Below are positions 15,815-33,605 of a stretch of 45,160 bases of DNA, in pieces (positions within the stretch are counted from its first letter, which is position 1; each line of letters starts with the position of its first letter). Location: NCBI GenBank assembly GCA_017479285.1, contig JAFVCL010000071.1, forward strand, positions 1 to 45,160, in the 5' to 3' direction. Below the pieces are notes generated by a model. That model searched no databases. It was given only the letters and a program-made list of their open reading frames with translations, and was not told where the DNA came from. The position numbers and the translations under genes are program-made. Source of the DNA: Lachnospiraceae bacterium. GTDB taxonomy: Bacteria; Bacillota; Clostridia; Lachnospirales; Lachnospiraceae.

Positions 15815-15954
15815 ATATTGATTTATTAAAGAATGAACAATTCACTTCAATAAATAAAATGAAGAAGTATCGATTTTATGTTTAATTAAAACATTCAATA
15901 TTAAACCAAATACTTAAACTGAATTATATAATGTCGTAAAACTGTTGTCAATAT

Positions 15955-15968
15955 CGAAATCGTTTTAG
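15955..15968. promoter_or_regulatory. LacI-type operator-like palindrome, site 1
   Basis: CGAAATCGTTTTAG; read on the minus strand CTAAAACGATTTCG, a close relative of site 2. The central CG flanked by AA/TT is the hallmark of LacI-family operators. It is the weakest of the three sites. Its centre is 52 bases from that of site 2. Confidence 0.35.
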
Positions 15969-16006
15969 TAATGTTGCACAAAAATTCGCAACTTTTTTCT
16001 ATTTCA

Positions 16007-16020
16007 CTTAAACGATTAAG
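16007..16020. promoter_or_regulatory. LacI-type operator-like palindrome, site 2
   Basis: CTTAAACGATTAAG is a 14-base palindrome with one mismatched pair, centred on CG between 16013 and 16014. It lacks the outer TG...CA of catabolite-response (CcpA) sites, so a different LacI-family protein is more likely. Confidence 0.5.
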
Positions 16021-16137
16021 GAGTTGCACATTTTATAAAAAATTAGTAAAGTATAGATAAATTTAAGTGAAAATGAAATCATTTAATTAAAAAGTGAAAC
16101 ACAAAATGATTTTAGGACAAAAACAGCACATTTTTCA

Positions 16138-16151
16138 ATTAAACGCTTAAT
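16138..16151. promoter_or_regulatory. LacI-type operator-like palindrome, site 3
   Basis: ATTAAACGCTTAAT is a 14-base palindrome with one mismatched pair, sharing TTAAACG-n-TTAA with site 2 at 131 bases centre to centre. Paired sites at this distance would suit DNA looping by a tetrameric repressor. Confidence 0.5.
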
Positions 16152-16281
16152 CAAAATAGAAAAAATTGTTAAAAGTTAAACAAATTAATGAAATACAAGC
16201 CTAATTATTGAAACAAAAGCATGAACGCTATAGGAAGATGATATAAGAAAAAACCAAACTACCGAAAGGGGAAACCAAGAA

Positions 16282-17784
16282 ATGGCAAAGTTTTACATCA
16301 ATCCTAACAACCAGAAAGGACATATCAACCCGGAGATTCAGGGACACTTCTCAGAGCACCTCGGACGCTGCATATATGAAGGAATATATGTGGGAGAGGA
16401 TTCAAAGATCCCCAATGTCAACGGAATGAGAAAGGATGTTGTCAAGGCACTTAAGGAGATTAAGATTCCGGTACTTCGCTGGCCCGGCGGCTGTTTCGCA
16501 GACGAGTATCACTGGAAGGACGGCATAGGCCCCAAGAAGAACAGGAAAAAGATGATAAACACCCACTGGGGCGGAGTCGTAGAGGACAACAGCTTCGGTA
16601 CGCACGAGTTCATGGAGCTCTGCAAACAGCTCGGCTGCAAGACCTATGTAAACGGAAATGTGGGCAGCGGCACAGTTCAGGAGATGAGCGAGTGGGTTGA
16701 GTACATGACCTTCGAAGGTGTTTCCCCGATGGCGGATCTTCGTAAGAAGAACGGAAGCAAGGATCCCTGGAAGGTTGACTACTTCGGAGTCGGAAATGAG
16801 AACTGGGGATGCGGCGGAAACATGACACCCGAGTATTACGGAAACCTCTACCGCAGATACCAGACCTATGTTAGAAACTACAAGCCCGATGCTCCAATAA
16901 AGAAGATAGCCTGCGGACCCAATGTGGATGATTACAACTGGATGGAGGGCGTACTTAAGACCTGCTTCGCGGCACCCGATTTCCTCCACGGCTTTATGGA
17001 CGGCATAAGCCTTCACTATTACACTCATCCGGGCGGATGGGAGCACAAGGGAAGCGCTACCGACTTTACCGATAAGATGTGGTACCAGACCTTAAAGAAG
17101 ACTCTTTACATGGAGGACCTCATCAATCACCACGCAGCCATCCTTGATAAGTACGACAAGAACAATCAGGTGGGACTTATCGTTGACGAGTGGGGAACCT
17201 GGTTCGATGTAGAGCCCGGAACAAACCCCGGATTCCTTTACCAGCAGAACACCATCCGCGATGCTCTTGTGGCAGGTATAAACCTCAACATCTTCAACAA
17301 GCACTGCGACAGGGTAAAGATGGCAAACATCGCGCAGATGGTAAATGTCCTTCAGTCTGTACTCCTGACCGAGGGCGACAAGATGGTAAAGACACCTACC
17401 TACCATGTATTCAATATGTACAAGCACCATCAGGACGCAGAGCTTCCTGAGAGCTACATCGAGACTGAAAAAATCGGACTTGAGGACGAGAACATGGTTC
17501 CCAATCTTACCGAGTCGGTATCCATGGGCAAGGACGGAAAGATGCACATTACCATTACAAATCTTTCCATCAAGAAGGCATACAGCATAGACACAGAGAT
17601 CGCAGGAAGCAAGATCAAAGCGGTAAAGGGCGAGATCGTAGGCGGAGAGATACACGAGCACAACACCTTCGCAAAGCCCAATACTGTTAAGGTAAACAAA
17701 TTTGAGGACGCAAGCTTCAAGGATAACAAGCTTAAATTCAAGATTCCCGCAAGCAGCGTGCTTCACCTCGAAGTAACCGTATAA
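16282..17784 (+). CDS. abfA: Alpha-L-arabinofuranosidase, GH51
   Basis: Retaining exo-enzyme releasing terminal alpha-L-arabinofuranose from arabino-oligosaccharides. No signal peptide, so it works in the cytoplasm on imported oligomers. The (beta/alpha)8 catalytic domain carries the acid/base Glu173 in [11 protein letters not shown] and the nucleophile Glu303 in [13 protein letters not shown]. Substrate-site segments [15 protein letters not shown] and [20 protein letters not shown] are the GH51 hallmark. A C-terminal beta-sandwich follows from about residue 395. At 500 residues it has the standard length of bacterial GH51 enzymes. First gene of the large operon, with 30 bases to the next gene. 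Specificity for arabinan versus arabinoxylan is not certain, but the GH43/araA context favours arabinan. Confidence 0.96.
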
Positions 17785-17814
17785 TATACGGATAAATAAT
17801 CAGGAGACCTACCT

Positions 17815-20784
17815 ATGTTTCGTAAGAGCGTTAAAAAGGCAGCATCTATATTGATATCGGCAGTTATGGCAATGGGAAGCCTGTCACTTGGCGGACTTAC
17901 CGCAGCGGCGGAGGAGAATGCTTCCGGAGAACCATTGGTTACGGAGCTTTCCGCGACCGATTCCGGGGTCGACAGACTGACCACCAATTACACGACTGTA
18001 AGCAAAAACTATACCGCTAAGGATTATACCGGTGAAACCGTAGTTATATCCATCGAGGACAATATAGATGATGCCGGGCTCCTTACGGGCGACAATCATA
18101 TGTACGAGGCCGGAAACATGGTTGCTTCGGTGTCTGCCGGAGACACCTTCAGGGTAAGGATAAACGCCCCGGAGACCGCGAAGTACCTGATCGGTTTCGA
18201 CTATTTATCCTACGATGCTTCTATCCTTCCCGTGGAGATAGGAATGAAGATAGACGGGGAGTATCCCTTCTATGAGGCGAGGAGCATGAGCTTCGAGACC
18301 ACATGGTTATCAAAGGCTATCGACACGGATCGCTACGGAAATGAGATCGTATCCCTTCCCGATAAGGATATCCGCTGGGAGCACAAGGAGGCGATGGACG
18401 CAAGCTACCGTTACTCCGAGCCCTTAGCTGTCGAACTTACAGCGGGTGAACACGAGCTCGAACTCACAATGCAGGAGGGAACGGTTCTTGTCGGAAACAT
18501 ATCCTTAAGCGCTCCGACGAGCGTTCCGGAGTACACCGGTTCCTCCAGGGCGGAAGGAAACAGCATCATCACTATTGAGGCTGAGGATTTTTACGAGAGA
18601 AACGACTCCTCGATCCACGCGACCGGAGAGTACTCCTCAAGAATAAATCCCCTTGACGCAACAGTAACGGTATTAAATCTGATCGACGAGGAGTCCTTCA
18701 ATGAGGCCGGTCAGAGAGTAACCTACAGATTCAGCGTTGACAATGCGGGTTACTACTATATAGGAATGAACTACCGCCAGTCGGAGAAAAACGACTTCCC
18801 CGTGTTCGTAGACTGGAGAGTGGACGGGGAGATTCCCAATACCGCATTTAAATCCTATGCGGTTGAGGCAAATAACAATTTCAAAACAAGGACGCTTAAG
18901 GATGCGGAAGGAAATAACCTGAGCGTTTATCTTGAGCCCGGCGAGCATACAATTTCGCTTACCATCAGCGCAGAGAACTTAAGATACGCGCTTGAAGCGG
19001 TTGACGAGATAATGAGCGGTATAAGCGACCTCTCGCTCGAGGTTACAAAGGTAGCCGGAACAAACACCGACAAATACAGAGATTTAAGACTTACAAGATA
19101 TATTCCCGATATACAGGAAAGATTACAGGGCTGGGTCGATCAGCTCTATGACATAACAGAGCAGGCGCAGGGTTATGTGGACGCGAAGAAACCCGACCAG
19201 GTAGCTGCATTCTCGTATCTGCTCATCGCGGCAAGACAGCTCGAGGATCTCGCGAAGGAGCCTAACGAGCTGGTTTACAGAGTGGGAGAGCTTTCGACCA
19301 GCACCAACTCCATCAACACACAGATTGCAAACTTTGTTGATCTTATAAATGACAATGACCTGGCAATAGACAGGATATATATATACCAGGAAGGAGCAAA
19401 GCTTCCGAAGGGACAGGGCTTCTTTAAATCCATCGGAACCTCCATCGCGAGATTCTTCAACTCCTTCTTCGGACAGTCATATTCGGCATCAAATACCGAT
19501 GAGACCCACATTCAGGTCTGGGTGAACAGGCCTCGTACTTATGTAGAGATCATGCAGAAGATGATCGACGAGGAGTTCACACCGGAGACGGGAATAAGCG
19601 TTGACCTTTGCCTTATGACCGATGCCCAGAAGCTTATCCTTTCAAACGCTTCCGGGGACACGCCGGATATAGCCACCGGAATAAACTACTCGATCCCTTA
19701 CGACCTCGCGATAAGAGGAGCGCTTGTGGATATGACGAAGTTCGACAATTACAGGGAAGTGTTCGGAAGATACTCGGACGGACTCCTTGTTCCCTCGGTG
19801 GTAGGCGATGGGCTTTACTCCCTTCCCGAGACGATGAACTTCTATGTAATGTTCTACCGCACGGATATACTGAGCAAGCTGGGGCTGCAGGCACCGCAGA
19901 CAATGGACGAGCTTATAGCGATGCTCCCCGATCTCCAGATGAGAGGACTTAATGTTTACTATCCCACCGCACCAATGGCGGCCATGAGAAACTTCCACGG
20001 AACAACGCCTCTTATCTTCCAGAACGGAGGAGCCCTCTACGGAGAGACAGCTCTTGATATAACGGTGGACAGCGAGGAGACCGTCAAGGGCTTTACCGAG
20101 CTGACCGAGCTGTTTACCCTCTACGATCTGCCGGTTGATGTGCCGAACTTCTACCAGCACTTCAGAAACGGAGACCTGCCCATAGGAATCGCGGATTTCA
20201 ACTCCTACAACCTGATCCTTAACGCGGCTCCCGAGATCGCAAACTCATGGGCGATAACACTTGTCCCCGGAGTGGAGGATCCCGAAACCGGAGAGATTTA
20301 CAGATACATGGCGGGCGGCGCGGAGAGCTCGATAATGTTTAACTCGACGCCCGAGAGAGAGCAGCAGGCGTGGGACTTCCTTGAGTGGTGGTCAAGAGCG
20401 GAAACCCAGGCCGAGTTCGGACAGAGACTCCAGATACTTTACGGCGACGAGTACATCTGGCCGACGGCAAATGTGGAAGCCTTCGGAATGCTTCCTTATC
20501 CGACCTCCGACAAGGAAACGATAATGGAGCAGGCACAGTACATCCTTGAGGCACCGAGACTTCCCGGAAGCTACATGATGGAGCGTGAGCTTTCCAATGC
20601 ATACAACGATGTGGTGGTAAACGGAGACAGCATCCGCTCCCGCATCGATGAGGTTGTAAAAACCGTAACCCGCGAGACTGAAAGAAAACTCGAGGAATTC
20701 GGCTATATCGACTCTGACGGCAACATAATCAAACCCTACATCGCCCCCAGCGTGGAGACTGTACGGAAGATAATGGAAAAATAA
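17815..20784 (+). CDS. Very large ABC-type substrate-binding protein with two N-terminal sugar-binding-like domains
   Basis: 989 residues, more than double a usual sugar-binding protein. A signal sequence (residues ~10-35) ends in LTAAAEE with no lipobox cysteine, unlike the lipoprotein at 28933. Two related beta-rich modules follow (about residues 70-240 and 250-400). Both end in an 'AGEHELELT / PGEHTISLT' strand typical of galactose-binding-like carbohydrate modules. A helical linker (about 400-540) leads to the family-1 solute-binding domain (about 565-960), recognisable from [29 protein letters not shown] and [19 protein letters not shown]. The protein is inferred to capture an arabinan-type polymer or oligomer and hand it to the adjacent permeases. 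AGGAG precedes the ATG; the permease gene starts 19 bases after its stop. Confidence 0.85.
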
Positions 20785-20803
20785 GAAGAAAGATTATTCA
20801 GAC

Positions 20804-21709
20804 ATGGCAAAATCATCTGTAGGAAAAAGATCTCATAACAACAAAGCGGGCTACTTTTTCGTGTTCCCCTATGCGGCGCTCTTCGTGATCTTTATACTCG
20901 CGCCCGTAGTGATGGCGGTAATCCTTTCGTTTACCAACTTCAACGCGATACAGTTTCCGAAGTTCGTAGGCTTTTTAAACTACATCAACCTTATAACAAG
21001 CGATGATGTGTTTATGAAATTCGTACTTCCGAACACCGTTAAATACGCTCTTATCGTCGGCGTCGGCGGATATGTGCTGGCATTCCTTTTAGCCTTCGGT
21101 CTCGCAAATCTGCCGAAGGTACCGAGAACGGTTTTTGCACTTATCCTCTACTCCCCGAGCATGACAACCGGTGTTGCCATGAGCGTCCTCTGGAAGATCC
21201 TTTTTACCGGAGACCAGACGGGATACTTAAACAGCTGGCTGATGGAGATAGGAGTCATAAACGAGCCGGTAATATGGCTTACGAACGCCAACTTCCTCCT
21301 TCCGATCGTTATAATAATCGGACTCTGGAGCAGCATGGGCGTAGGCTTCCTCTCAATCCTCGCGGGACTTTTGAATGTGGATGAATCCCTTTACGAGGCG
21401 GCGGCGATAGACGGAGTCAAGAACCGTTTCCAGGAAATGATCTATGTGACAATCCCGAGCATGAAGCCCCAGATGCTTTTCGCGGCGGTAATGCAGATCG
21501 TCGGAGCGTTCCAGAACGGTACCATCGCCACAATGCTCGCGGGAAACCCCACACCGGGATATTCGGCACAGCTCATCGTAAACCACATTGAGGACTACGG
21601 ATTTATAAGATACGAGATGGGATATGCAGCAGCGGTTTCCGTAATACTGCTTCTCATCGTACAGATATTCAGTTCAGTATCGACCAAGCTCTTCGGAGAG
21701 AAGGACTAA
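20804..21709 (+). CDS. Sugar ABC transporter permease, MalF type (set 1)
   Basis: Six predicted membrane helices in 301 residues. The cytoplasmic EAA loop that contacts the ATPase reads [20 protein letters not shown] followed by IPSMKP. The N-terminus [20 protein letters not shown] is the usual MalF/UgpA-type opening. It would form a heterodimer with the product of the next gene, 18 bases downstream. The substrate is inferred to be an arabino-oligosaccharide from context, not from the sequence. No ATPase gene exists in the operon; a shared MsmK-type ATPase encoded elsewhere is the expected partner. Confidence 0.93.
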
Positions 21710-21727
21710 AGGAAGGAGGAAAGAAAA

Positions 21728-22603
21728 ATGGCTTATAAAGGACACAGAATGAACCCTGACAAGTTCGAAAAAGGTCAGATAAAGATATACCTCCTGGTTC
21801 TTCCGATGGTGCTTCTTTGCGGACTGCCTATCATATTTATCATATTCCACGCATTTAAGCCTATGGAAGAGCTCTTCGCCTTTCCTCCGAAGTTTATCAC
21901 GCTTCACCCGACGCTTGATAACTTCGCAAAGCTTATAAAAGCGTCGAGGACGGGAAGCATTCCTCTTTCAAAATACTTTTTCAACAGTATTTTCGTAACG
22001 GTAGCCGTTGTTTTCGGCTCGCTCCTTTTCTCCACAATGGCCGCATACGCACTCTCCAAGATAAAGTTCAAGGGTGCGAAGGTGATGATGCAGATCAACC
22101 AGATAGCGCTCATGTTCGTATCCGTAGCGGTTATGATCCCGAGATATCTGGTGGTAAACAAGCTCGGAATGATCGACACCTACTGGGCTGAGATACTTCC
22201 TCTTATAGCTCTTCCCGTAGGACTCTTCCTTATAAAGCAGTTCGTGGACCAGGTACCGGATTCGCTTATAGAGGCCGCCTACATGGACGGAGCGAAGGAA
22301 TGGCAGATTTATTTAAAGGTCATACTTCCCCTTATAAAGCCGGCAATCGCGACAGCGGCGATCCTGGTATTCCAGCAGGTCTGGAACAACCTGGAGACTT
22401 CAAACTACTATGTAAACGACGACTCGATAAAGTCGCTGGCATTTTACATGAACACTCTGACATCGACAACGACTACAAACACAGTCGCAGGTCAGGGAAT
22501 CGCGGCAGCCGCATCTCTTATAATGTTCCTGCCGAACCTTATACTCTTCTGCATACTCCAGAAGAATGTTATGAACACCATGGCACACTCCGGTATCAAG
22601 TAA
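21728..22603 (+). CDS. Carbohydrate ABC transporter permease, MalG type (set 1)
   Basis: 291 residues with six predicted helices. The EAA loop reads IEAAYMDGAKEWQIYLKVIL followed by PLIKPA. The C-terminal ILQKNVMNTMAHSGIK is the standard MalG-family ending. It pairs with the permease at 20804. GGAAGGAGGAAAG precedes the ATG. The next gene starts 19 bases after the stop with a GTG codon, continuing the operon. Confidence 0.93.
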   Translation: MAYKGHRMNPDKFEKGQIKIYLLVLPMVLLCGLPIIFIIFHAFKPMEELFAFPPKFITLHPTLDNFAKLIKASRTGSIPLSKYFFNSIFVTVAVVFGSLLFSTMAAYALSKIKFKGAKVMMQINQIALMFVSVAVMIPRYLVVNKLGMIDTYWAEILPLIALPVGLFLIKQFVDQVPDSLIEAAYMDGAKEWQIYLKVILPLIKPAIATAAILVFQQVWNNLETSNYYVNDDSIKSLAFYMNTLTSTTTTNTVAGQGIAAAASLIMFLPNLILFCILQKNVMNTMAHSGIK

Positions 22604-22622
22604 TTTTGAGAGGTAGCGAATC

Positions 22623-24680
22623 GTGAAAAACGGGATTAAAAAGATAATCGGGTACGCGATACTGCCGCTCATGCTTGCGGGAAGCATTTTCGCGGGAAGC
22701 ACGGCGAGCGCATTTGCGGATGCACCCTACAAGACATACACAGTTGACGGCTACGGCTCTGTGACGGAAACACAGACAGCATACCTTCCCTACAAGACCA
22801 TTACAAAGATCGGAGAGGAGACACTTTTAACCCCCACTGATTTTACACTGGTCAACGACGAGTATATCTACATCCTCGACAGCGGAAACGCGAGAGTAGT
22901 GGTTTCCGATATGGATAACGAGCTCGTTATGACCTTCGGAGAAGGGATCCTTGTAGCACCCAAGGGAATATATGTAACAAAGGATCGCACAACATATGTT
23001 GCCGACAGGGACGCGAAGGCGATATTCGTATTTGACAAGGACGGAAATCTTATAAATACATACACAAAACCCACCGAGGCGATGTACGGAGAGGCCCAGG
23101 ATTTCCTTCCCTTAAAGATAGTCGCAAACAAGTCCGGAACGATGTATATCGTCTGCGAGTCAAACACCAACGGAATTGTCCAGATAAGCCCAGTTGAGGG
23201 AGGAACCTTCCTCGGATATTTCGGAACGAACGCAACAAGCGCAAACCTCTGGACAATAATCTGGAGAGCGGTTTTGACGGATGCCCAGAGAGCAAAGATG
23301 CAGTCCAACATACCGGCGACTCCCGACAATATGGCGATAGATGACAAGGGCGTTATCTACACAATAACAAGAGGCGAAAACAACGATACACTTAAGAGGC
23401 TCAACATTGCCGGCGTAAATATGATCGAGACCACGGACTTCCCGGATATTCCCGCGGCAGTCGCAGCCGGAAACCACGACAATGTGTTCGTTGCAACCCA
23501 GACGGGATTTATTTACGAGTATAACAACGATGGCGATCTGCTCTTTATGTTCGGCGGAAGCGATGACGGAAAACAGCGTATCGGACTTTCCACAAAGGTC
23601 GAGGCCATACAGATAGGTCTTGATGACAAGATATATGTGCTTGACTCTGAGAAGGCACAGATACAGGTATTTGAGCCCACAGAGTTTACCGCGTATCTCC
23701 ACAATGCGCTTTACTTTTTCTCCAAGGGCCGCTATGAGGAGAGCAAAGAGCCCCTCGGAAAAGTGCTGGAGATGAACAATCTCTTTACCTATGCAAATAT
23801 GGCGATGGGTAAGGCTCTTTACAAAGAGGGAGATTACGAGGGCGCACTTAAATACGCGCGAATTGCCAAGGATGGCGACGGCTACTCGGATGCATTCTGG
23901 GAGATAAGAAATGTATGGCTTAAGAAGAACCTGACATGGATCGCAATAGTCATCGTGCTTATCGTTATCTGCTGGAATGTGATAAGAGTTCTTCATAAGA
24001 AAAAGCATATACTTGATAAGCCGAAGGAAGCGCTTGCAAAGATCGGCGAAGTAAAGCTGATGAAGCAGATAGGATATATGTTTTACTTTATGCGTCATCC
24101 CATCGACGGATGCTACGGCATAAAGAGAGAGGGAAGGGTTTCGGTACTCTCCGCAAACATAATCCTTGTTGTATCAATAGTATTCTATGTTATCAACAAG
24201 TATTTCTGCGGATTTTTAAGCAAGACGGTAAGAGACGGAAGCTTTGATCTTCTCTCGGATGTGGGAATGATATTGATCGCACTTCTCCTGGTGGTTTCAT
24301 GTAATTACCTTATGTGTACCATAAACGACGGTGAAGGAAGATTCAAAGACATCTACTGCTCGCTTATATACAGCTTTGCACCTTATGTTATCCTTACGCC
24401 GGTGGTTTTTATACTCTCGCATATCGTTTCCAACAACGAGATATTCTTCGTACAGTTCGGAAATCTTTGTATGTGGGTATGGATTGCGGTCCTTATCTTC
24501 ATAAGTGTTCAGGAGATAAACAATTACCGCATAGGAGAGACGATAAAGATCATACTTCTCACAGTATTTACGATCCTTATCGTAGCTCTCCTGGCATTTA
24601 TAATCTATGTACTTTGGTCGCAGGTATTTGACTTCCTGCAATCGATAATCGGAGAGGTGGTGTATCGAATTGGCTCATAA
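22623..24680 (+). CDS. NHL-type beta-propeller / TPR / YIP1 membrane fusion protein
   Basis: 685 residues. A signal peptide (about 1-33) leads into repeated blade motifs such as YIYILDSGNARVVVSD, TTYVADRDAKAIFVFDKDG and KIYVLDSEKAQIQVFEP, giving an NHL-like propeller at about 45-360. A short TPR-like helical pair follows (SKGRYEESKEPLGKVLEM, YKEGDYEGALKYARIAKDG). Next come a membrane helix at about 436-456, a basic cytoplasmic stretch, and a YIP1-like domain with about five helices (about 485-680) opening FMRHPIDGCYGIKREG. The outside-facing propeller would be coupled through the membrane to a bundle. Function is unknown; its place between two permease pairs suggests a role in assembling or gating sugar uptake. 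GTG start with GAGAGG upstream. The end overlaps the next gene by 11 bases. Confidence 0.8.
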   Translation: MKNGIKKIIGYAILPLMLAGSIFAGSTASAFADAPYKTYTVDGYGSVTETQTAYLPYKTITKIGEETLLTPTDFTLVNDEYIYILDSGNARVVVSDMDNELVMTFGEGILVAPKGIYVTKDRTTYVADRDAKAIFVFDKDGNLINTYTKPTEAMYGEAQDFLPLKIVANKSGTMYIVCESNTNGIVQISPVEGGTFLGYFGTNATSANLWTIIWRAVLTDAQRAKMQSNIPATPDNMAIDDKGVIYTITRGENNDTLKRLNIAGVNMIETTDFPDIPAAVAAGNHDNVFVATQTGFIYEYNNDGDLLFMFGGSDDGKQRIGLSTKVEAIQIGLDDKIYVLDSEKAQIQVFEPTEFTAYLHNALYFFSKGRYEESKEPLGKVLEMNNLFTYANMAMGKALYKEGDYEGALKYARIAKDGDGYSDAFWEIRNVWLKKNLTWIAIVIVLIVICWNVIRVLHKKKHILDKPKEALAKIGEVKLMKQIGYMFYFMRHPIDGCYGIKREGRVSVLSANIILVVSIVFYVINKYFCGFLSKTVRDGSFDLLSDVGMILIALLLVVSCNYLMCTINDGEGRFKDIYCSLIYSFAPYVILTPVVFILSHIVSNNEIFFVQFGNLCMWVWIAVLIFISVQEINNYRIGETIKIILLTVFTILIVALLAFIIYVLWSQVFDFLQSIIGEVVYRIGS

Positions 24681-26877
24681 AAGAATCGGTAAAATATTAT
24701 CAGCTCTCCTGGCAAGTGCCGTGTTTGCGACGGCATTGCCGCAAATTACCCTCCCCTTTGGTTCCTCTGATATCTCTGCCGCTTACGCTGCGACCGAAAT
24801 CGACGGACACAGTTTTGTGGCAGAGAGCAGCGGATACCGCCTCTATATGAGGGAGGACGACCTTTCCATCGTGGTCGAGGACAAAAATACCGGAGCCTAT
24901 ATGGAATCCGCGATAAGCTATGACGACGGAAAGAACAACGCAAGCTGGCTCGGAGCGATGAAGTCGGCCATCGTTATAACGATGATAAACGGAAATGACG
25001 ATACCCAGCAGGCAGACCTTATAAATGACGATGTAACGATAAATACAACCAAAAGTGATAAAGGCTTTTATTCTGAAATATACTGGAACAAATATAAATT
25101 CGGACTTACGCTTAATGTTGAGATCGATGAAAACGGTGTAAAGGCATTCATCCCCGACGAATCGATACATGAGGATGGCGACAGCTACTACATCGGAACC
25201 ATCGCGCTTTACCCCTATATGGGAAATTCCTATCTCGATGATAAGAGCGGATATATCCTTGTTCCCGACGGAAACGGGGCACTGATTTATCTCGATGACA
25301 AAGAGGGAAGATTCAAGAGTGGCTTTTCAGGATTTATCTACGGAACTGACATCGGGTTTGACGAGTCGGATGTAACGACCCTTTTAAAGGACAGATACAA
25401 TACGATTTCCGATTCGGAGAAGGTTATCGCACCGGTATTCGGAATAGCGCATACGGATGACGGAATCGCTTATCTCGCTGTGGTAGAGGACGGAGAGGCG
25501 AGAGCCTCCATCGAGTGTATACCGAACGGAGTTTCGGTTGATTACAACAGGGCTTACGCCAAGTTTACCTTAAGAAAGACCTACACACAGCCCACAAGCA
25601 ATAACTCGACCGCAGGCTCACTTCACATATTTGAAGCAGAGAGAAGCCATTCAAACCTCGGCGTAAGATACATCTTCTTATCGAACGAACAGGCAGATTA
25701 CTCCGGAATGGCGAATGCCTACAGAGAATATCTCATAACCAACGGTTATTTGAATCAGGCAGATGATTCATACAATACGAGAATAGATTTCCTCGGAACC
25801 GAAAGAGAAAGCTGGGTGCTTGGAACAACACCGGTAGTGATGACCACGGTGGATGACATTTATGAAATCTATGACGACCTCAAGACGGCGGAGGTTACCG
25901 ATATCCTCTCGGTATACAAGGGCTGGCAGAAGGGCGGACTATACGACCTTCCGATAAGCTCTTACAGCGTGGAGTCGAAGATAGGCGGAAAAGCAAAGCT
26001 TACAGAGCTTATAAGCGACTGTGCTGAAAGCGGAATAGATTTCTATCTTTACAACAATGCGCTGCTTATCAACCCTGACGAGAAAAACGCGACCTTCAAT
26101 GTCGTAAAGAAAATAAACAAGAGAAAATACGAGCAGAAGACATACATGGATGTGTACGAAAAACTCCTGTTTCTCATCCCCACTCGAAGCGACACTCTTT
26201 TAGACAGATTTATTAAGAGTTACACTGCAAAGGGAGTAAATAATCTGGCTCTTGCCGGAATAACAAACAATGTTTTCTCCTATAACTACAGCGGAAGCAA
26301 TTACACGAGATACAACACCCAGTCTTCGTACGCAGCCACAGTATCAAAGGTCGCAGATAGCACAAAGCTGATCATGGAACAGCCTTTCGCATACCTTTGG
26401 TCGGACACACAGGCGTTTCTGGATATGCCCCTTTACACCTCGGCTTACATCTTTGAGGACGAGAGCGTACCCTTCCTCAGCATGGTACTTAAAGGAAGCA
26501 TCCCGGTATATGCCGAGTATGTAAACTTTGAAGCAAACAAGCAGGAGTTCTTCCTCAAGATGGTTGAGAGCGGAAGCTTCCCCTCCTTCTACATAACAAA
26601 GGAGAGCTCAGCGGAACTTATCTACACGAATTCGAGCGATATATACAGCTCCGAATACAGCTCATATAAGGACACGATCGTTGAGTATTCAGAGAAGCTT
26701 AAGGAGCTCGGAACGCAGACCGAAGGAGCGCAGATCGTAAAGCACGAGATACTTGAAAACGGAATTACAAAGGTTACCTACTCAAACGGTATCAAGGTAT
26801 ATGTAAACTATAGCTTACAGGATGAGACAGCGGACGGAATAACCGTTGGTTCGATGTCCTATGAGGTAGGCAGGTAA
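24670..26877 (+). CDS. Exported DUF5696-type protein
   Basis: 735 residues with a signal peptide (about 1-42, ending in AAYAATEI) and no lipobox. The sequence resembles DUF5696-type exported proteins seen beside ABC sugar permeases. The N-terminal third is beta-rich (YRLYMREDDLSIVVEDKNTG, YILVPDGNGALIYLDD). The central part has alternating strand/helix character (LGTTPVVMTTVDDIYEIYDD, GIDFYLYNNALLINPDEKNA), which could be a TIM-barrel-like hydrolase fold. I cannot assign catalytic residues. The start is TTG at 24670, preceded by GGAGAGGTGG at suitable spacing; no ATG lies near the signal peptide. It overlaps the gene before by 11 bases and the permease after by one base (TAATG), so translation is coupled on both sides. 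Confidence 0.75.
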   Translation: MAHKRIGKILSALLASAVFATALPQITLPFGSSDISAAYAATEIDGHSFVAESSGYRLYMREDDLSIVVEDKNTGAYMESAISYDDGKNNASWLGAMKSAIVITMINGNDDTQQADLINDDVTINTTKSDKGFYSEIYWNKYKFGLTLNVEIDENGVKAFIPDESIHEDGDSYYIGTIALYPYMGNSYLDDKSGYILVPDGNGALIYLDDKEGRFKSGFSGFIYGTDIGFDESDVTTLLKDRYNTISDSEKVIAPVFGIAHTDDGIAYLAVVEDGEARASIECIPNGVSVDYNRAYAKFTLRKTYTQPTSNNSTAGSLHIFEAERSHSNLGVRYIFLSNEQADYSGMANAYREYLITNGYLNQADDSYNTRIDFLGTERESWVLGTTPVVMTTVDDIYEIYDDLKTAEVTDILSVYKGWQKGGLYDLPISSYSVESKIGGKAKLTELISDCAESGIDFYLYNNALLINPDEKNATFNVVKKINKRKYEQKTYMDVYEKLLFLIPTRSDTLLDRFIKSYTAKGVNNLALAGITNNVFSYNYSGSNYTRYNTQSSYAATVSKVADSTKLIMEQPFAYLWSDTQAFLDMPLYTSAYIFEDESVPFLSMVLKGSIPVYAEYVNFEANKQEFFLKMVESGSFPSFYITKESSAELIYTNSSDIYSSEYSSYKDTIVEYSEKLKELGTQTEGAQIVKHEILENGITKVTYSNGIKVYVNYSLQDETADGITVGSMSYEVGR

Positions 26878-27956
26878 TGAGTGATAATAAAGACCAGGCA
26901 AAAACAAATATCGAAGAAACAAAACCTAAAAAGGTCAAAGTAAAGCGCGGAAAGCTTGAAGCCAGAGAAGCAAGAATGGGTTACTTCTTTGTTCTTCCGT
27001 GGATAATCGGTACACTGATCTTTGTGCTGATCCCGTTAGGACAATCCTTCTACTACATGTGGTACAACATAAGGATCACGCCTCTCGGGACGAAATTCAC
27101 ATGGGTGGGAACCGGTAACTTTACCCAGATATGGCTCGAGAATCCGGAGTTCCCACAGCAGCTTGTGACATACATCTGGCAGACGATTGTGGAGGTTCCG
27201 ATAATCGTAGTATTCGCGCTTATCATAGCGATGATGCTGAACGGAAAGATAAAGCTGAAGGGCTTCTTCAGACTCATATTCTTCCTCCCGGTCATCATAG
27301 TAAGCGGACCGGTTATGAATATGCTTGTAAGTGAAGGAGCGTCAACAATCCCGGCGATGAACACACAGGCGGTTATCAATGCACTGGATACATTCCTTCC
27401 GACAAAGATGGCGAATTCCGTCGGCGAGCTCTTTGGAAATATGATCATGGTCCTCTGGTATTCCGGAGTCCAGATACTCATATTCCTATCGGCGCTGCAA
27501 AAGGTTGACCCTTCGCTCTACGAGGCGGCTAAGATGGACGGAGGAAGCGGATGGGAGTGCTTTTGGAAGATAACGCTTCCCACAATAAAGAACTTTATCC
27601 TGCTGAACGCGGTTTATACGGTAATCTTCCTCTCAAGCAACGAGCAGAACGAGCTGATCACGATGATCAAGAACGCTATGTTCTCCGGTACAAAGGAAAA
27701 GGGCTACGGATACGCATCGGCGATGGCATGGATGTACTCCATAGTCGTTACACTTATAGTTCTTCTCTTCTTCCTGTTACTTGGAAACAAGAGAGATCAG
27801 TATGACAGACTTGTTTCAAAGAGAAAGAGAATGTTGAAGCGCGAGGAAAGACTCGCAAGGAAGATAGAAAGGAGGGGCGCAAGAAATGTCAAGAAGCTCG
27901 AACGCGCAAGGCGCAGTCACCGCTACAAGACCTACGACGGCAACGGAGACTATTAA
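26877..27956 (+). CDS. Sugar ABC transporter permease, MalF type (set 2)
   Basis: 359 residues. A charged N-terminal tail (about 40 residues, KPKKVKVKRGKLEAREARMG) precedes six predicted helices. The EAA loop reads YEAAKMDGGSGWECFWKITL followed by PTIKN near residue 215. A strongly basic C-terminal tail (about 55 residues, rich in RK and RR pairs) lies in the part that overlaps the next gene. Both tails are longer than in the set 1 permease. The start ATG shares one base with the stop of the DUF5696 gene. It pairs with the permease at 27886. Specificity is inferred from context only. Confidence 0.92.
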   Translation: MSDNKDQAKTNIEETKPKKVKVKRGKLEAREARMGYFFVLPWIIGTLIFVLIPLGQSFYYMWYNIRITPLGTKFTWVGTGNFTQIWLENPEFPQQLVTYIWQTIVEVPIIVVFALIIAMMLNGKIKLKGFFRLIFFLPVIIVSGPVMNMLVSEGASTIPAMNTQAVINALDTFLPTKMANSVGELFGNMIMVLWYSGVQILIFLSALQKVDPSLYEAAKMDGGSGWECFWKITLPTIKNFILLNAVYTVIFLSSNEQNELITMIKNAMFSGTKEKGYGYASAMAWMYSIVVTLIVLLFFLLLGNKRDQYDRLVSKRKRMLKREERLARKIERRGARNVKKLERARRSHRYKTYDGNGDY

Positions 27957-28893
27957 AAAGATATTTACAAAGGAAAGGCTCCACCGGTTTATTTTCGGAA
28001 CAAGAGAAAAACAGGGCGTGGGCAAGATGATAGTGATATACGCGCTTCTCATCTGCATCGGCTTTGTTTACCTTTATCCTATGCTCTATATGATAAGCAC
28101 AAGCTTCATGAGCAGGGACGACCTTCTCGATACCTCGGTAAAATGGCTTCCCAGCACATTTTATCTCCAAAACTATATCGATGCCGGAAAGTCAATGGAC
28201 TTCCTTATGTCCTTCCTCAAGGGAATCGCCATAGCGGGACTTCCGACACTCTGCAATATAGTAATCTGTATGCTTGTGGGCTACGGCTTCGCAAGATACG
28301 ATTTCAAGGGAAAGAAGATAATGATGGGGCTCCTGATCTTCTCCTATATCCTTCCGAGCCAGGTAACCATGATACCTACATATGTGCTTTACAACAATAT
28401 GCACATCCTCGGTACGATACTGACCTTCGTTATCCCGGCACTTTTCGGAAACGGACTTAATGCCCCCATATTCATACTGATATTCTATCAGTTCTTTAAA
28501 CAGATACCCAAGGTACTCACCGAGGCGGCGGCAATCGACGGAGCGGGACACTTCAAGACCTTCTTCCGTATCGCGGTTCCTTCGGCTGTACCTGCGATAG
28601 TAACGGTAGTGCTCTTCTCGTTCGTATGGTACTGGAATGAGTCTTATCTCACAGAGCTTTATGTACAGGGGCTTTCAGCGAATACAGTCTGGACGAACCT
28701 TGTTGTACAGCTAAAGAATTTTGACCAGTCCTTCAACACGAGGGCGACAGTCGGAGATACGGCAACGAGCCTTAACGAGTCAGTCAGAATGGCCGCGACG
28801 ACGCTGAGCATACTACCGCTGCTTGTAATGTACCTCATACTCCAGAAGCAGTTTGTAGAGAGCATTGACAGGGCAGGTATCACGGGTGAATAA
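27886..28893 (+). CDS. Carbohydrate ABC transporter permease, MalG type (set 2)
   Basis: 335 residues with an extended N-terminus of about 50 residues before the first helix (MIVIYALLICIGFVYLYPML). The EAA loop reads TEAAAIDGAGHFKTFFRIAV followed by PSAVPA. The ending YLILQKQFVESIDRAGITGE is typical of MalG. The ATG at 27886 lies 71 bases inside the preceding gene. It is supported by AAAGGAGGGG seven to nine bases upstream and by continuous family-like sequence. An alternative later start would lose this ribosome site. The binding lipoprotein gene follows after 39 bases. Confidence 0.9.
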   Translation: MSRSSNAQGAVTATRPTTATETIKKIFTKERLHRFIFGTREKQGVGKMIVIYALLICIGFVYLYPMLYMISTSFMSRDDLLDTSVKWLPSTFYLQNYIDAGKSMDFLMSFLKGIAIAGLPTLCNIVICMLVGYGFARYDFKGKKIMMGLLIFSYILPSQVTMIPTYVLYNNMHILGTILTFVIPALFGNGLNAPIFILIFYQFFKQIPKVLTEAAAIDGAGHFKTFFRIAVPSAVPAIVTVVLFSFVWYWNESYLTELYVQGLSANTVWTNLVVQLKNFDQSFNTRATVGDTATSLNESVRMAATTLSILPLLVMYLILQKQFVESIDRAGITGE

Positions 28894-28932
28894 AAACAAA
28901 AAAACTAATTTTCATACGCAAAGGAGGATGTT

Positions 28933-30453
28933 ATGAAAAAGAACAAAATTGTAGCTGCTCTTCTTACAGTAGCTATGGTGGCATCGGTTCTCACCGGCTG
29001 CGGCAGTTCGGGTTCAGGCTCGGGAAATTCAAGCGGCGCTACGGGAGAAGACGGGGTTACCACCGACAACATTACACTTACCTATTGGCACTACGAGGAT
29101 GAGACCACAGTCGGACTTATGGCTGAGGCTTTCATGAAGAAGTATCCCAATATCAAGGTAGAGTGTAAGCAGATCGCGGATATGTCAACTGACCTTTCCG
29201 CAGCGGCAGCGGCCGGAACCTTCCCGGATGTATTCTCCGGAACCGATTCCGATACAGCTCTCGCAAATATGTACTGGATGGACATCACCGAGTATGTTGA
29301 GAACGATCCCGACATGGACAATATGATGGTTTCCATCAAGAACTACGGTATCGGAAAGTTTGACACCGACAGATGGTTCGGACTTCCCACCTGGTACCAG
29401 CCCAGCGCTATCTTCATCGACAGAAATGTTATCACAAAGCTCAACCTTGAGATGCCCAGAACCGACTGGACCTGGGCTGAGATGATCCAGCTTATCAAGG
29501 ATGCAACCGTTGATGACCGTTCCGGAATGAAGTACTACGGGCTCGGCTTCTACAACAGACTTGACTCTCTTTACGGAATCGCTGCCTGCGCAACCGCAGA
29601 GCGTGCCATCAAGGGTGAGTTCGGATTCGACGGAACCGATTTTGACCTTTCCTATTGGGCAATCGGGGAGCAGGAATTCGGCGATCTTCAGACCGGCGGA
29701 TATGTAGCTCCCAAGCAGAACACCCAGCAGATGGAAGACTGGTCGGGCGACTGGGGAACTTGGTTCGGCGCTACCGGACATGTGGCAGTATTTTCCGAGG
29801 GCTTCTGGTCTTATCAGAACCTCTGGGGAACCGATGGTTATCAGGAGCAGTACGGACTTGATATCGTTCCTTATGTAACTCCAAATGTTGTAGATGAGAA
29901 GGATCACAATATCATCGCCAATATGTACATCGGTGGTGTATCCACATCCTGCAAGCATCCCTATGAAGCATATCTTCTTCTTAAGTTCATGGGTATCGGA
30001 ACCGAAGGCTGGAAGGCAAGACTTGATATTTATGAGGATGAGAGCATCACAAATGCTTCCGGCGTAGCTCTTAAGCACGCAAATATGCCTGTACCTATGA
30101 CTCTCGACACCGAGGTTTGGGATAGATACAAGGCAATGTTCCCCACCGATGAGGAACATAAGAAGTACTGGGATGACTATTTTGCATCCATCACAAGACC
30201 CGTTCCTTACGGCTGGTACTCCATCGCAGGTTACTGGAACTTCTGTGACCAGTACTTCAACAAGATCGGTATTCATGACCTTGTAGATGCCGGAACCGCA
30301 AAGGCTGCCGATTATGCCGCAGAGGCTACCGAGCAGGCAAATTACTATCATGCAGAGGCTATGCTCTCTTACTTCGGACCTTCCGGATACGATGTTCTTT
30401 CCGAAGAGGAGATCGCACAGTACCAGGCAGTAGTTGATTCCTTCGGTTCATGA
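28933..30453 (+). CDS. ABC transporter substrate-binding lipoprotein
   Basis: 506-residue family-1 sugar-binding protein. The lipobox VLTGC places the lipidated Cys at residue 23, followed by a Ser/Gly-rich flexible linker (GSSGSGSGNSSG). The mature domain opens with ITLTYWHYEDETTVGLMAEA and shows AGTFPDVFSGTDSDTALANM, a classical solute-binding pattern. Trp and Tyr are abundant (for example DWSGDWGTWFGATGHVAVFS), fitting an oligosaccharide ligand. It is the conventional partner for permease set 2. AAAGGAGG before the ATG and strong codon bias suggest high expression. A hairpin follows the gene before the next coding region. Confidence 0.93.
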   Translation: MKKNKIVAALLTVAMVASVLTGCGSSGSGSGNSSGATGEDGVTTDNITLTYWHYEDETTVGLMAEAFMKKYPNIKVECKQIADMSTDLSAAAAAGTFPDVFSGTDSDTALANMYWMDITEYVENDPDMDNMMVSIKNYGIGKFDTDRWFGLPTWYQPSAIFIDRNVITKLNLEMPRTDWTWAEMIQLIKDATVDDRSGMKYYGLGFYNRLDSLYGIAACATAERAIKGEFGFDGTDFDLSYWAIGEQEFGDLQTGGYVAPKQNTQQMEDWSGDWGTWFGATGHVAVFSEGFWSYQNLWGTDGYQEQYGLDIVPYVTPNVVDEKDHNIIANMYIGGVSTSCKHPYEAYLLLKFMGIGTEGWKARLDIYEDESITNASGVALKHANMPVPMTLDTEVWDRYKAMFPTDEEHKKYWDDYFASITRPVPYGWYSIAGYWNFCDQYFNKIGIHDLVDAGTAKAADYAAEATEQANYYHAEAMLSYFGPSGYDVLSEEEIAQYQAVVDSFGS

Positions 30454-30465
30454 TAAGGAACAAAA

Positions 30466-30498
30466 AATGGTTTTACCCCGGGGCAGCAAGGCCCCGGG
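30466..30498 (+). other. Intercistronic GC-rich hairpin after the binding-protein gene
   Basis: CCCGGGGC (30477-30484) and GCCCCGGG (30491-30498) pair around AGCAAG. There is no T-run after the stem, so it is better read as an mRNA-stabilising or attenuating element than a full terminator. The leading 18 bases (30466-30483) recur with one mismatch after the next gene. Confidence 0.75.
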
Positions 30499-30548
30499 TA
30501 AGATAAAAAGTTATTTAAATTTTATAATTACTATAGGAGGAAAGCTAA

Positions 30549-33395
30549 ATGAAAAAGAAGCTTTTAAGCGTTCTTCTCTGCGGAGCTATGGCGGCGACTG
30601 TGATCGCAGGATGCTCTAAGGGAGGAGATACCGGAGCAGATACCGGCGCATCAGGCGATGCAGGTCAGGCAACCGGAGCTGCTACCGCATCTGCCGATAT
30701 CCCGACAGACTACAAGTACTATTATTCCTTTGACCAGGCTGATGACAAGGAAACCATAAGAAAGGTTACCTGCGAAGCAGGCTCCACTATGGTTCCCGTA
30801 GAGAAGGAGAAGAATTACATCCCCGGTGTTAAGGGCGAAGCTCTTTACAATGATGGTGTATTCGGATACGACCTTGAGGATGTAAACGGTGTCGGAAATT
30901 CCTACACCATTTCCTACTGGACATACTGCCAGAGAAGTGCGCTTTATATGCCCAATACCATCTGGGGACCCGATATCAAGGGTAACAAGGACATCGGAGC
31001 AGAGCAGTGGGCAGCATTTGACTGGCTTGCATCCGACGATGATTCAACCCAGCAGGTATTCCCCGGCATCTGGTCTAACGAGGGCGCAGGCGTAGGCCGC
31101 GCAGAGTGGAAGGCAGCAGGAGCAGATCCCCAGACCGGACATTGGATGCACCTTGCACTTGTTGTAGACGAGAACAATGTATCCGCTGACGGAAATCTTT
31201 ACTATGCAAAGGTTTATGTTGACGGACAGGAATATCAGAAGATAACCAATGGTGAGGTTGTTCCCGTAAGCATCGTTAAGAGCGCAATGGTTCCCGCAGA
31301 TTCATTCGAGTTCCTTCTCGGAATCAACTACTGGGACGCAGTATTCAAGGGAGCTTTCGATGAGCTTTACATCTATGACAGAGCTCTTGATGCTACAGAG
31401 ATTGCTGCACTTGCCGCAGACGGAGATTCTTCCGTAGCTCTTCAGGAGCCCGAGAGAGTTATCGAGCCTGTAGCAAGCGCGGAGTTCATCACCGCACTCG
31501 GAGATCTCTCACTTAAGGCTGAGGAAGGTGCAAACACCTCTGACGCATATCCTATCAAGGATGGCGAGACCTTCAAGTTCACTCTTAAGAACTGGTCAGA
31601 CGGCGCTGATATGAAGAACAACTACATCCTTAAGTTCGCTACCGAGAGCAAGGATGTTGCAACCATCTATGCAGACGCTTCCGGAACTGTTAACGGAAAT
31701 GATATCACAAATGACTTTACCTACACCTGGGGTAACTGGAATTCATGGCTTTCAAATACCATGAGAGAGGCTTCTCCCGTTATTACCGTTTCAAGAAGCG
31801 GCGATGAGATTACTCTTTCCTGCGATAATATCGATATCTACGGCTCTGTAGGAGCAAATGTTGCAAATGTAACCTTCGCTACCGGCGTAGCAGACGATGA
31901 GGCTATCAATCTTACCTTCACCAACAAGGACAGCTATGTAGAGCTTCTTTCCGTAAAGGATCTGACTGCAAAGGCAGGCGGCATCGTAGTCGGAAATACC
32001 GACAGAAGTACTCCTTTCTGGACTGCATTCTCAGATATCTTCGAGATCCCTGAAGGACAGTCCGTGACCAAGACCTTCACAAACTACACTGACGGCGCAG
32101 AGCTTTGGAGAAACTATCTTGTATGTCTCCAGACCACTCCTTCCGGACACAGTGCCGATGATACTGAAGGATATGCCGAGTATGCTGTTCTTCGTGCGGA
32201 TGCATTCGGTTGGGGCGATGGATATGAGACCGCTACTGTAGATAACAACTTCAACTTCGATACCTTTAAGGAAGACATGGACGGTGCAAAGGTTACCGTT
32301 ACCATCACCAATAACGGCGATACTGCTGATGTTTATGCGGATGTACTCACCGCTGACGGAAGAAGCTTCTACCAGAGCTACAAGGGAATCACCACCGGAG
32401 GACCTCTCTATGCATGCTTCCTCTGCGAGGGATCATATCTCTCATTTGATGCTGTTACCGTAGGAAATACCGACAGAAGCACTCCTTTCTGGACCGCATT
32501 CTCAGATATCTATGCAGTTCCTGAAGGAACCTCAAAGACCGTATACTTCAAGAACTACACCGATGGTGCAGAGCTTTGGAGAAACTATCTCGTAGCACTT
32601 CAGAATGTACCTGCAGGTCATAGTGCGGAAGCCTATGAGGGATACAAAGAATATGCAGTAGTCCGTGCAGATGCGTATGGATGGGGAGATGGCTACGAGG
32701 CTGCAACTGTAGATCATAACTTCAACTTCGACAGCTTCAAGGAAGACATGGACGGTGCAAGCGTAGCGGTTACCGTTACCAATAACGGTTCAAGCGCTGA
32801 TGTATACTGTGCAGTCACCACCGCAGCAGGACAGAGCTACTATCAGAGCTATAAGGGAATCACCATCGACGGAGACCTTTACTTCAAGCTTCTCTGCGAG
32901 GGATCTTACCTTGTTATCGAGGGCGAGAAGGTTGGTAATACCGATTGCTCAACTCCTTTCTGGACCGCATTCTCAAACATCTATGCAGTACCTGAAGGAT
33001 CAACTGTTTACAAGAGCTTTACAAACTACACTGATGAGGCAGAGCTTTGGAGAAACTACCTTGTATGTCTCCAGACCACTCCTACCGGACACAGTGCTGA
33101 TACCACGGAAGGCTATGCAGAGTACGCTGTTCTTCGTTCCGATGCATTCGGATGGGGCGACGGCTATGCTACCGCAACCGTAGAGAACAACTTCAACTTT
33201 GATACCTTTAAGGAAGATATGAACGGAGCACACGTTCTTCTTGCAGTTACCAACAACGGTGCAACAGCTGATGTTAAGGCATATGTTACCACCGCTGACG
33301 GAAGAACATTCCAGCAGAGCTTTACCGGCATCACCACCGGCGGAGACCTATACTTCTGCCTGCTCTGCGAGGGCTCATACCTCGTGATCGATTGA
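30549..33395 (+). CDS. LamG-domain lipoprotein with tandem 157-residue repeats
   Basis: 948-residue surface lipoprotein; the lipobox VIAGC puts the lipidated Cys at residue 22. A LamG/concanavalin-like domain spans about residues 50-295 (GVKGEALYNDGVFGYDLEDV, HWMHLALVVDENN, FDELYIYDRALDATEIAAL). A diverged beta-rich module follows (about 315-478). Then come three closely similar repeats starting at residues 481, 638 and 795 with an exact 157-codon period. Each opens VGNTD-x-STPFWTAFS and carries AELWRNYLV, FGWGDGY or YGWGDGY, NFNFD and a closing LCEGSYL. No catalytic motif is seen. A polysaccharide-binding role on the cell surface is inferred from the aromatic-rich repeats and locus. AGGAGG precedes the ATG. 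Confidence 0.85.
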   Translation: MKKKLLSVLLCGAMAATVIAGCSKGGDTGADTGASGDAGQATGAATASADIPTDYKYYYSFDQADDKETIRKVTCEAGSTMVPVEKEKNYIPGVKGEALYNDGVFGYDLEDVNGVGNSYTISYWTYCQRSALYMPNTIWGPDIKGNKDIGAEQWAAFDWLASDDDSTQQVFPGIWSNEGAGVGRAEWKAAGADPQTGHWMHLALVVDENNVSADGNLYYAKVYVDGQEYQKITNGEVVPVSIVKSAMVPADSFEFLLGINYWDAVFKGAFDELYIYDRALDATEIAALAADGDSSVALQEPERVIEPVASAEFITALGDLSLKAEEGANTSDAYPIKDGETFKFTLKNWSDGADMKNNYILKFATESKDVATIYADASGTVNGNDITNDFTYTWGNWNSWLSNTMREASPVITVSRSGDEITLSCDNIDIYGSVGANVANVTFATGVADDEAINLTFTNKDSYVELLSVKDLTAKAGGIVVGNTDRSTPFWTAFSDIFEIPEGQSVTKTFTNYTDGAELWRNYLVCLQTTPSGHSADDTEGYAEYAVLRADAFGWGDGYETATVDNNFNFDTFKEDMDGAKVTVTITNNGDTADVYADVLTADGRSFYQSYKGITTGGPLYACFLCEGSYLSFDAVTVGNTDRSTPFWTAFSDIYAVPEGTSKTVYFKNYTDGAELWRNYLVALQNVPAGHSAEAYEGYKEYAVVRADAYGWGDGYEAATVDHNFNFDSFKEDMDGASVAVTVTNNGSSADVYCAVTTAAGQSYYQSYKGITIDGDLYFKLLCEGSYLVIEGEKVGNTDCSTPFWTAFSNIYAVPEGSTVYKSFTNYTDEAELWRNYLVCLQTTPTGHSADTTEGYAEYAVLRSDAFGWGDGYATATVENNFNFDTFKEDMNGAHVLLAVTNNGATADVKAYVTTADGRTFQQSFTGITTGGDLYFCLLCEGSYLVID
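31989..33392 (+). repeat. Three tandem 471-bp in-frame repeats within the LamG lipoprotein gene
   Basis: Units begin at 31989, 32460 and 32931; the last is 462 bases and ends at the stop codon. They remain alike at nucleotide level in many stretches, for example CTCCTTTCTGGAC near the start of each unit. Confidence 0.9.
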
Positions 33396-33456
33396 TCATG
33401 AAAATGACATTTTCGGACGCACACATACTTTTTGTCAGTCATTAGCGGCCGAGAAT

Positions 33457-33506
33457 AATGGATTTACCCCGGGGTGCGGATGCTATGCATCCCGGGGAGT
33501 TCTTTT
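33457..33506 (+). terminator. Terminator at the end of the large arabinan operon
   Basis: CCCCG...GGATGC (33467-33482) folds with GCATCC-CGGGG (33488-33497) around TAT with an internal bulge, and is followed by AGTTCTTTT. It shares the AATGG-n-TTTACCCCGGGG leader with the hairpin at 30466. It closes the transcription unit that starts at the GH51 gene. Confidence 0.75.
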
Positions 33507-33561
33507 ATAACAAATAGTGGGTTCAGATCGACTATTTGAATACAGTTGTGCGATAAATTGC

Positions 33562-33605
33562 AGTTTATATACACGCACCGGGCGTATATAAAAACTACAG
33601 TTTAT
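33562..33605 (+). promoter_or_regulatory. Inverted and direct repeats upstream of the first GH43 gene
   Basis: AGTTTATATAC (33562-33572) and GTATATAAAAACT (33584-33596) form an interrupted inverted repeat around a CGC/GCG-containing centre. CAGTTTAT occurs at 33561-33568 and again at 33598-33605. The element lies after the operon terminator and 50-90 bases before the GH43 start, where an operator or leader structure would sit. No firm promoter hexamers were found. Confidence 0.4.

Follow-up and report, generated by a model that had tools for sequence, protein, structure and literature searches.

The window, by which we mean the whole 45,160-nucleotide stretch of contig JAFVCL010000071.1 from a Lachnospiraceae bacterium (GenBank assembly GCA_017479285.1), carries a compact block of seven genes in which a giant substrate-binding protein (gSBP) is followed by a first MalF/MalG-type permease pair (F1 and G1), a membrane protein combining an NHL propeller, tetratricopeptide repeats (TPR) and a YIP1 region, an exported DUF5696 protein and a second permease pair (F2 and G2). 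The next gene encodes a second, conventional substrate-binding protein (SBP2), a lipoprotein (Table 1). The original prediction had given this gene order and these domains, and all the open reading frames (ORFs) were found at the positions it gave them, with Pfam backing the named domains and giving weak support to the TPR (TPR_16, 0.0071, under the Pfam cut-off); the same 685-residue protein has TPR and NHL matches in the Protein Data Bank (PDB). The gene list itself held, and its count of six was corrected to the seven genes listed, or eight with SBP2. Measured distances bore out the gaps of under 40 bases or less than zero, being 19, 18, 19, -11, -1, -71 and 39 bases from gSBP to SBP2. F2 and G2 share 71 bases (27886-27956), over which the basic tail of F2 is encoded across the N-terminus of G2, and this overlap appears genuine, since G2 has an AGGAGG-type ribosome site, within F2, directly ahead of its start.

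Table 1. Position and sequence support of the features of the gene run in the window.
Feature	Position	Strand	Support and remarks
Arabinofuranosidase gene (Alpha-L-AF_C)	16282..17784	+	Pfam Alpha-L-AF_C 9.2e-53; first gene of run; substrate context, outside module
Giant SBP (gSBP, 989 aa)	17815..20784	+	Pfam SBP_bac_8 5.4e-21 at residues 586-870; signal peptide, CBM35-like domains, helical stalk, CUT1-type SBP
F1, first MalF-type permease	20804..21709	+	BPD_transp_1 1e-8; EAA loop present
G1, first MalG-type permease	21728..22603	+	BPD_transp_1 1.5e-16; EAA loop EAAYMDGA
NHL propeller-TPR-YIP1 membrane protein (685 aa)	22623..24680	+	Pfam NHL 8.6e-8, Yip1 (PF04893) 6.3e-11
DUF5696 protein (735 aa), exported, predicted GH129/GH101-like	24670..26877	+	PF18952 2.3e-172
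F2, second MalF-type permease, basic C-terminal tail	26877..27956	+	BPD_transp_1 2e-8; EAA loop EAAKMDGG
G2, second MalG-type permease	27886..28893	+	BPD_transp_1 2.8e-18; EAA loop EAAAIDGA
SBP2, conventional lipoprotein SBP (506 aa)	28933..30453	+	SBP_bac_8 7.4e-10; lipobox Cys23
LamG-domain protein (948 aa), arabinan-cluster context	30549..33395	+	Laminin_G_3 1.5e-12
Terminator-like hairpin 3' of LamG gene	33467..33497	+	12 pairs, 9 G-C

Gene order and co-occurrence across genomes

DUF5696 (PF18952) was searched in relatives and in class and phylum samples of genomes, the neighbourhoods were fetched, and hidden Markov models (HMMs) of the components placed 154 distinct DUF5696 proteins. Sixty-four of these loci were fully flanked, having upstream flanks of 8 kb or more and downstream flanks of 2.3 kb or more; the 90 with shorter flanks were excluded, 4 of which show DUF5696 alone in their flank. 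The 64 loci share ancestry and are not independent. In 58 of them the first component called upstream of DUF5696 is YIP1, encoded by one gene or by two, with F2 and then G2 downstream. The remaining six are standalone DUF5696 genes; for two of these (L178 and L179) the opposite strand carries, at some other place in the stretch, permease genes that match weakly. Upstream F1 and G1 occur together in 55 of these 58 module loci, the exceptions being L160, L183 and L191; gSBP was called in 55 as well, upstream in 54 and downstream in one. In one locus (L146:6331-11725) the DUF5696 gene is split, with nearly 3 kb between its two pieces, as an insertion would leave it; the second piece lies between DUF5696 and F2/G2, and gSBP falls just beyond the counted span.

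Genomes were scored on their best 3 to 5 candidates with cut-offs that we chose (DUF5696 E<=1e-60, NHL-YIP1 E<=1e-20, gSBP N-terminus E<=1e-15), in samples made up of related lineages with incomplete metagenome-assembled genomes (MAGs) among them. Weaker DUF5696 matches (about 17-24 bits) were left uncounted, and two of these, L194 and L195, were rejected as one mainly DUF6259 protein and one alpha-amylase. Among the 290 genomes of the class sample besides the window's own, 61 carry NHL-YIP1, 63 strong DUF5696 and 60 both (Fisher p = 2.6e-57, uncorrected for shared ancestry), the neighbourhood having been read for part of the 63. The gSBP N-terminus is present in 62, and of the 64 genomes with any of these parts 59 hold the full set, the others (G115, G128, G158, G159 and G329) having some but not all. 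In the phylum sample both genes are present in 25 of the 26 genomes that carry either NHL-YIP1 or strong DUF5696. With the window genome counted in, the class sample has NHL-YIP1 of this type in 62 of its 291 genomes and the phylum sample in 27 of its 299; some genomes hold at least four DUF5696 genes. The check that the original prediction had proposed therefore came out in its favour, since the YIP1-propeller, DUF5696 and the permease pairs are associated non-randomly over many genera, and co-occurrence together with gene order rules out chance neighbours.

The closest named matches to the window are Lachnospiraceae MAGs, one titled as roe deer omasum, and the 'RUG' names among the matching MAGs presumably denote rumen origin. 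Annotated copies in named organisms lie on Butyrivibrio fibrisolvens D1 plasmid pNP243 and on a Paenibacillus cellulosilyticus plasmid, and these two are the only plasmid records with a match.

Pairwise identities of the seven proteins over 71 loci correlate with Spearman coefficients of 0.65-0.86 for all pairs and 0.49-0.79 for divergent pairs, computed without control for the organism tree; gSBP-G1 is highest (0.86) and F2-G2 stands at 0.76. This covariation is consistent with joint inheritance. It also bears on a rival explanation, in which two ordinary importers are inherited together by happenstance while the NHL-YIP1 and DUF5696 proteins do an unrelated envelope job. On that account each pair may own a binding protein, as 7 of the 10 divergent loci tested close, or nearly close, on the 3' side with an SBP gene (in the remaining loci this gene was GH30 once and without a meaningful family twice); EAA coupling loops are present in all four window permeases; and gSBP, F1 and G1 correlate most tightly with one another (0.81-0.86), yet F2-G2 hardly exceeds F2-gSBP or F2-YIP1 (0.75). 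Happenstance does not readily explain why the accessory genes sit between the two pairs in 55 of the 58 loci, nor why genomes with one part nearly always carry the rest, and we regard this explanation as quite unlikely.

DUF5696 and its catalytic pair

Pfam assigns no function to the DUF5696 family. With phmmer the window protein gave only unrelated PDB matches (E>=0.29), and profiles were required. The profile of the importer-linked proteins matched DagB (5opq, 3.8e-10) and NagBb (5wzn, 1.8e-6), and at E<0.1 its matches were confined to 5opq, 8rzg/8rzk and 5wzn/5wzq; 8rzg/8rzk are labelled as a conserved hypothetical periplasmic protein, and their aligned stretches look identical to 5opq. As stated in the available portion of PMC5698469, DagB is GH129-like and Asp435 of NagBb is a catalytic residue. 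Standalone DUF5696 relatives, of about 560-780 aa, gave stronger matches: a profile of six of them reached 5wzn at 1.8e-27 and also matched GH101 structures, and the three that were scanned have weak GH101 matches in Pfam. The two branches align to each other with hhalign at 2.2e-42. By these profile comparisons DUF5696 is predicted to be a distant relative of GH129/GH101 glycosidases. In the standalone proteins the motifs YIDV and ASEG align (positions being counted in the alignment) with Asp435 and with Glu478 of NagBb, the latter of which we take to be the acid/base residue. These proteins look like a group of uncharacterised active glycosidases, and those of about 560-600 aa are encoded at L178:6787-8502, L179:9430-11115, L198:1087-2790, L199:7004-8761, L200:9588-11387 and L085:4421-6196.

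Next to permease genes the catalytic pair is poorly conserved. In a MAFFT alignment Asp and Glu are both kept in 3 of 144 importer-linked proteins versus 6 of 9 standalone ones, the other three being off by one column (two) or without the Glu (one), and by HMM alignment the counts are 2 of 144 versus 9 of 9. Importer-linked proteins carry Asp, Gly, Thr, Ser and other residues at the nucleophile column and Glu, Asn, Asp, Ser and others at the acid/base column. The window protein lacks the pair expected of an active GH129/GH101 member: by our reading of the hhalign alignment it has Gly at the position of NagBb Asp435, and at its acid/base position hhalign puts Gln, while MAFFT puts there the Glu next to that Gln. 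The original prediction had allowed that DUF5696 might process arabinan, which is unlikely because the GH129-type catalytic pair is so seldom kept.

Several polar columns are conserved all the same, namely Asn 573 (0.82; Phe in the window), Tyr575 (0.90), Asp597 (0.80), Asn619 (1.00) and Glu633 (0.90), so the protein is not decaying at random. This conservation, the glycosidase homology and the three proteins that keep both residues would suit a surface glycosidase with a re-arranged active site that trims chains before uptake. The catalytic columns vary across the 144 importer-linked proteins while the standalone relatives keep them, and we consider active trimming unlikely.

Membrane and binding proteins and flanking genes

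All six hydrophobic stretches of the 685-residue NHL-TPR-YIP1 protein start at residue 430 or later, so the propeller and TPR probably lie outside the cell. Many relatives encode propeller and YIP1 as two adjacent genes (about 500 and 210 aa in divergent loci). The accessible parts of two sources link the family to ABC transporters: YknW, of the Yip1 family, modulates assembly of the YknXYZ ABC transporter complex (PMC4887032), and Yip1 proteins accompany ABC transporters in bacteriocin clusters (PMC10707071).

The C-terminal half of gSBP is a CUT1-type SBP, and SBP_bac_1 is matched by 26 of 28 diverse gSBPs. A profile of 23 N-terminal halves matches the cycloisomaltooligosaccharide glucanotransferase 5x7g (6.3e-11) over residues 432-520, which we take to be the family 35 carbohydrate-binding module (CBM35) of that enzyme; the profile also matches coiled-coil designs at 439-506 and has a weak match (0.016) to an exo-glucosaminidase domain. 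Among the 28 proteins, Pfam finds CBM_35 in 8, CBM_6 in 2, GH115_C in 3 and Golvesin_C in 11, and in the N-terminus of the window protein GH115_C only, at residues 247-384 and just under the cut-off. The giant binding protein had been described as non-lipidated, which agrees with its signal peptide without a lipobox and with the lipobox of SBP2. By a simple rule a lipobox is present in 5 of 75 gSBPs and missing from the other 70, and it is present in 33 of 34 SBP2 proteins; several gSBPs look, from their sequence, as if they begin with an uncleaved membrane helix.

In relatives the EAA pattern was found in 4 of 78 F1, 78 of 80 G1, 100 of 130 F2 and 80 of 89 G2 proteins, the low F1 count reflecting a pattern that is too strict, as the F1 consensus shows the loop. 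A UgpC-family ATPase encoded elsewhere in the genome (contig C82; NF008653, 441.8 bits against a curated cut-off of 432) would power the module.

The window copy of the module belongs to an arabinan/arabinose locus, because an arabinofuranosidase gene ends 30 bases upstream of it and a LamG protein, three GH43 enzymes, an FGGY kinase and an arabinose isomerase are encoded downstream. Residues 90-290 of the LamG protein resemble the extracellular arabinanase 5hon (1.6e-6), the remainder having no clear family, and relatives of this protein come after SBP2 in many close loci. The hairpin behind its gene, which has the most pairs and G-C of the 19 candidate sites in 15700-34800, is a possible 3' end of the transcription unit; those 19 sites compare with a shuffle mean of 17.0 and are thus near chance, and the promoter and terminator scan of the region as a whole gave about as many sites as shuffled sequence. 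One perfect TTGACA-17-TATAAT match lies on the minus strand at 15951-15923, upstream of a divergent HTH gene (14849-15814). An Rfam scan of the window found no families.

Elsewhere the neighbours vary. We scanned 66 hand-picked ORFs of the 171 flanking ones, and 25 of 67 families are listed; among the matches listed, the flanking carbohydrate-active enzymes (CAZymes) and modules are GH26 (4), GH130 (2), GH10 (2), CBM35 (3) and CBM65 (2), with single occurrences of GH9, a pectate lyase, an alginate lyase and a fucosidase. The same genome holds a second, divergent copy of the module (L046:1-20000, contig C36), which is preceded by a GH10 gene and followed by HlyD-type and FtsX-type genes and two proteins (542 and 711 aa) without a Pfam family. 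On the P. cellulosilyticus plasmid (L207:4887-29010) an annotated UgpC adjoins the module, and 3' of it lie genes for four LLM flavin-dependent oxidoreductases, an NADPH oxidoreductase, an aldo/keto reductase and two SBPs, a set that we take to recall sulfosugar monooxygenase pathways. Arabinan, which the original prediction had proposed as substrate, fits this operon but is not supported as the substrate of the system as such: the varied CAZymes and the GH10-preceded second copy rule out a module specific for arabinan in general. Most likely the cargo in the window is an arabinan oligosaccharide, and because the flanking genes vary, cargo probably differs from locus to locus.

Some neighbours invite a different idea, in which NHL-TPR-YIP1 and DUF5696 would be no transport subunits but would together sense sugar and adjust the importer, or its genes, accordingly. 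Dead enzymes and SBPs are often reused as sensors, the Butyrivibrio plasmid copy has genes for a histidine kinase and a response regulator upstream of it, and the window operon is preceded by a chemotaxis receptor gene and the HTH gene. Pfam detects no signalling domain in either protein, and no two-component gene was found among the window genes scanned, a subset of its ORFs; a sensor is very improbable on this evidence.

Proposed import module and related systems

We favour, with moderate confidence, a reading of the seven-gene block, or of up to nine parts where the propeller and YIP1 are split and SBP2 is counted, as a module of the CUT1 family that imports large or branched fragments of polysaccharides, with a YIP1 scaffold, a pseudo-glycosidase subunit and a shared UgpC/MsmK ATPase. 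In such a module gSBP would stay close to the membrane with no lipid anchor, catch long glycans by its CBM35-like domains and pass an end to its SBP domain. The NHL-TPR propeller on its YIP1 anchor would be a scaffold joining gSBP to the permeases, as YknW may be for its exporter, and DUF5696 would bind the chain and hand it over uncut. F1 and G1 would be served by gSBP and F2 and G2 by SBP2, both pairs importing fragments under the drive of the shared ATPase encoded elsewhere, and at other loci the same chassis would carry other glycans. We infer the physical assembly of these parts. A cell-surface machine feeding one or both permeases, as originally suggested, is plausible. More tentatively, and with considerable doubt, the parts could form one supercomplex with two permease heterodimers, in which the dead glycosidase, as a dedicated importer subunit, and the YIP1-anchored propeller guide long polysaccharide chains from the CBM-bearing SBP into the membrane, as a Gram-positive analogue of outer-membrane glycan capture.

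Several observations weigh against the import module as we picture it. L160 and L191 have displaced module parts, and no gSBP-F1-G1 was called upstream in L183; the identity correlations carry no organism-tree control. As regards a subunit that does not cut, HMM alignment leaves 35 of the 144 importer-linked DUF5696 proteins with no residue aligned to one or both catalytic positions; the nucleophile column holds Asp, with or without the Glu, in 59 of them by MAFFT and in 52 by HMM; and a Glu of the window protein falls on the acid/base position or one residue from it. Flanking families among the matches listed include the unrelated URO-D, Omp85 and BrxC, the P. cellulosilyticus locus has redox genes in place of CAZymes beside the module, and YknWXYZ, the Yip1 precedent, is an exporter.

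We know of no function assigned to this arrangement, in agreement with the original prediction: the literature matches listed for Yip1, NHL repeat, ABC transporter and related words contain no description of the module. DUF5696 goes unmentioned in the 5.39 million open papers searched, a search that left subscription papers mostly outside, so that an older description is possible. The available portions of two Butyrivibrio papers (PMC5217386, PMC6344614), a Clostridium thermocellum paper (PMC8112048) and a review (PMC11212667) contain nothing on the module, and no NCBIfam model over its cut-off names gSBP, NHL-YIP1 or DUF5696. The block turns up in many bacteria that are only distant relatives of one another, so it is probably a genuine machine, as yet undescribed, for taking up large plant-sugar fragments, a CUT1 importer with new accessory subunits. 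If these proteins do serve as transporter subunits, current annotations leave out parts of many carbohydrate importers in fibre-degrading Bacillota, and a glycosidase fold has been reused as a transport subunit that does not cut.

Among known systems, the module resembles CUT1 importers with a shared MsmK/UgpC ATPase in its SBP, its MalF/MalG-type heterodimer with EAA loops and an ATPase encoded elsewhere, but it differs from them in having two permease pairs per run, a giant CBM-like SBP without a lipobox and two extra exported or membrane proteins between the pairs. The GH129 enzyme NagBb, the GH129-like DagB and GH101 are matched by DUF5696 profiles (GH101 by those of the standalone relatives), whereas importer-linked proteins seldom have their Asp/Glu pair, the window protein with its Gly included. 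Bacillus YknWXYZ, in the part of PMC4887032 available, likewise is an ABC transporter dependent on a Yip1-family membrane protein, although here Yip1 is fused or adjacent to NHL-TPR and stands in an importer operon. Finally, cluster G SBPs (Athe_2052, AlgQ1/Q2 and FusA) are large binding proteins for long or branched glycans, according to the available text of PMC12710961, as gSBP would be; they measure about 55-60 kDa, against the 989 aa of gSBP with its CBM35-like domains.

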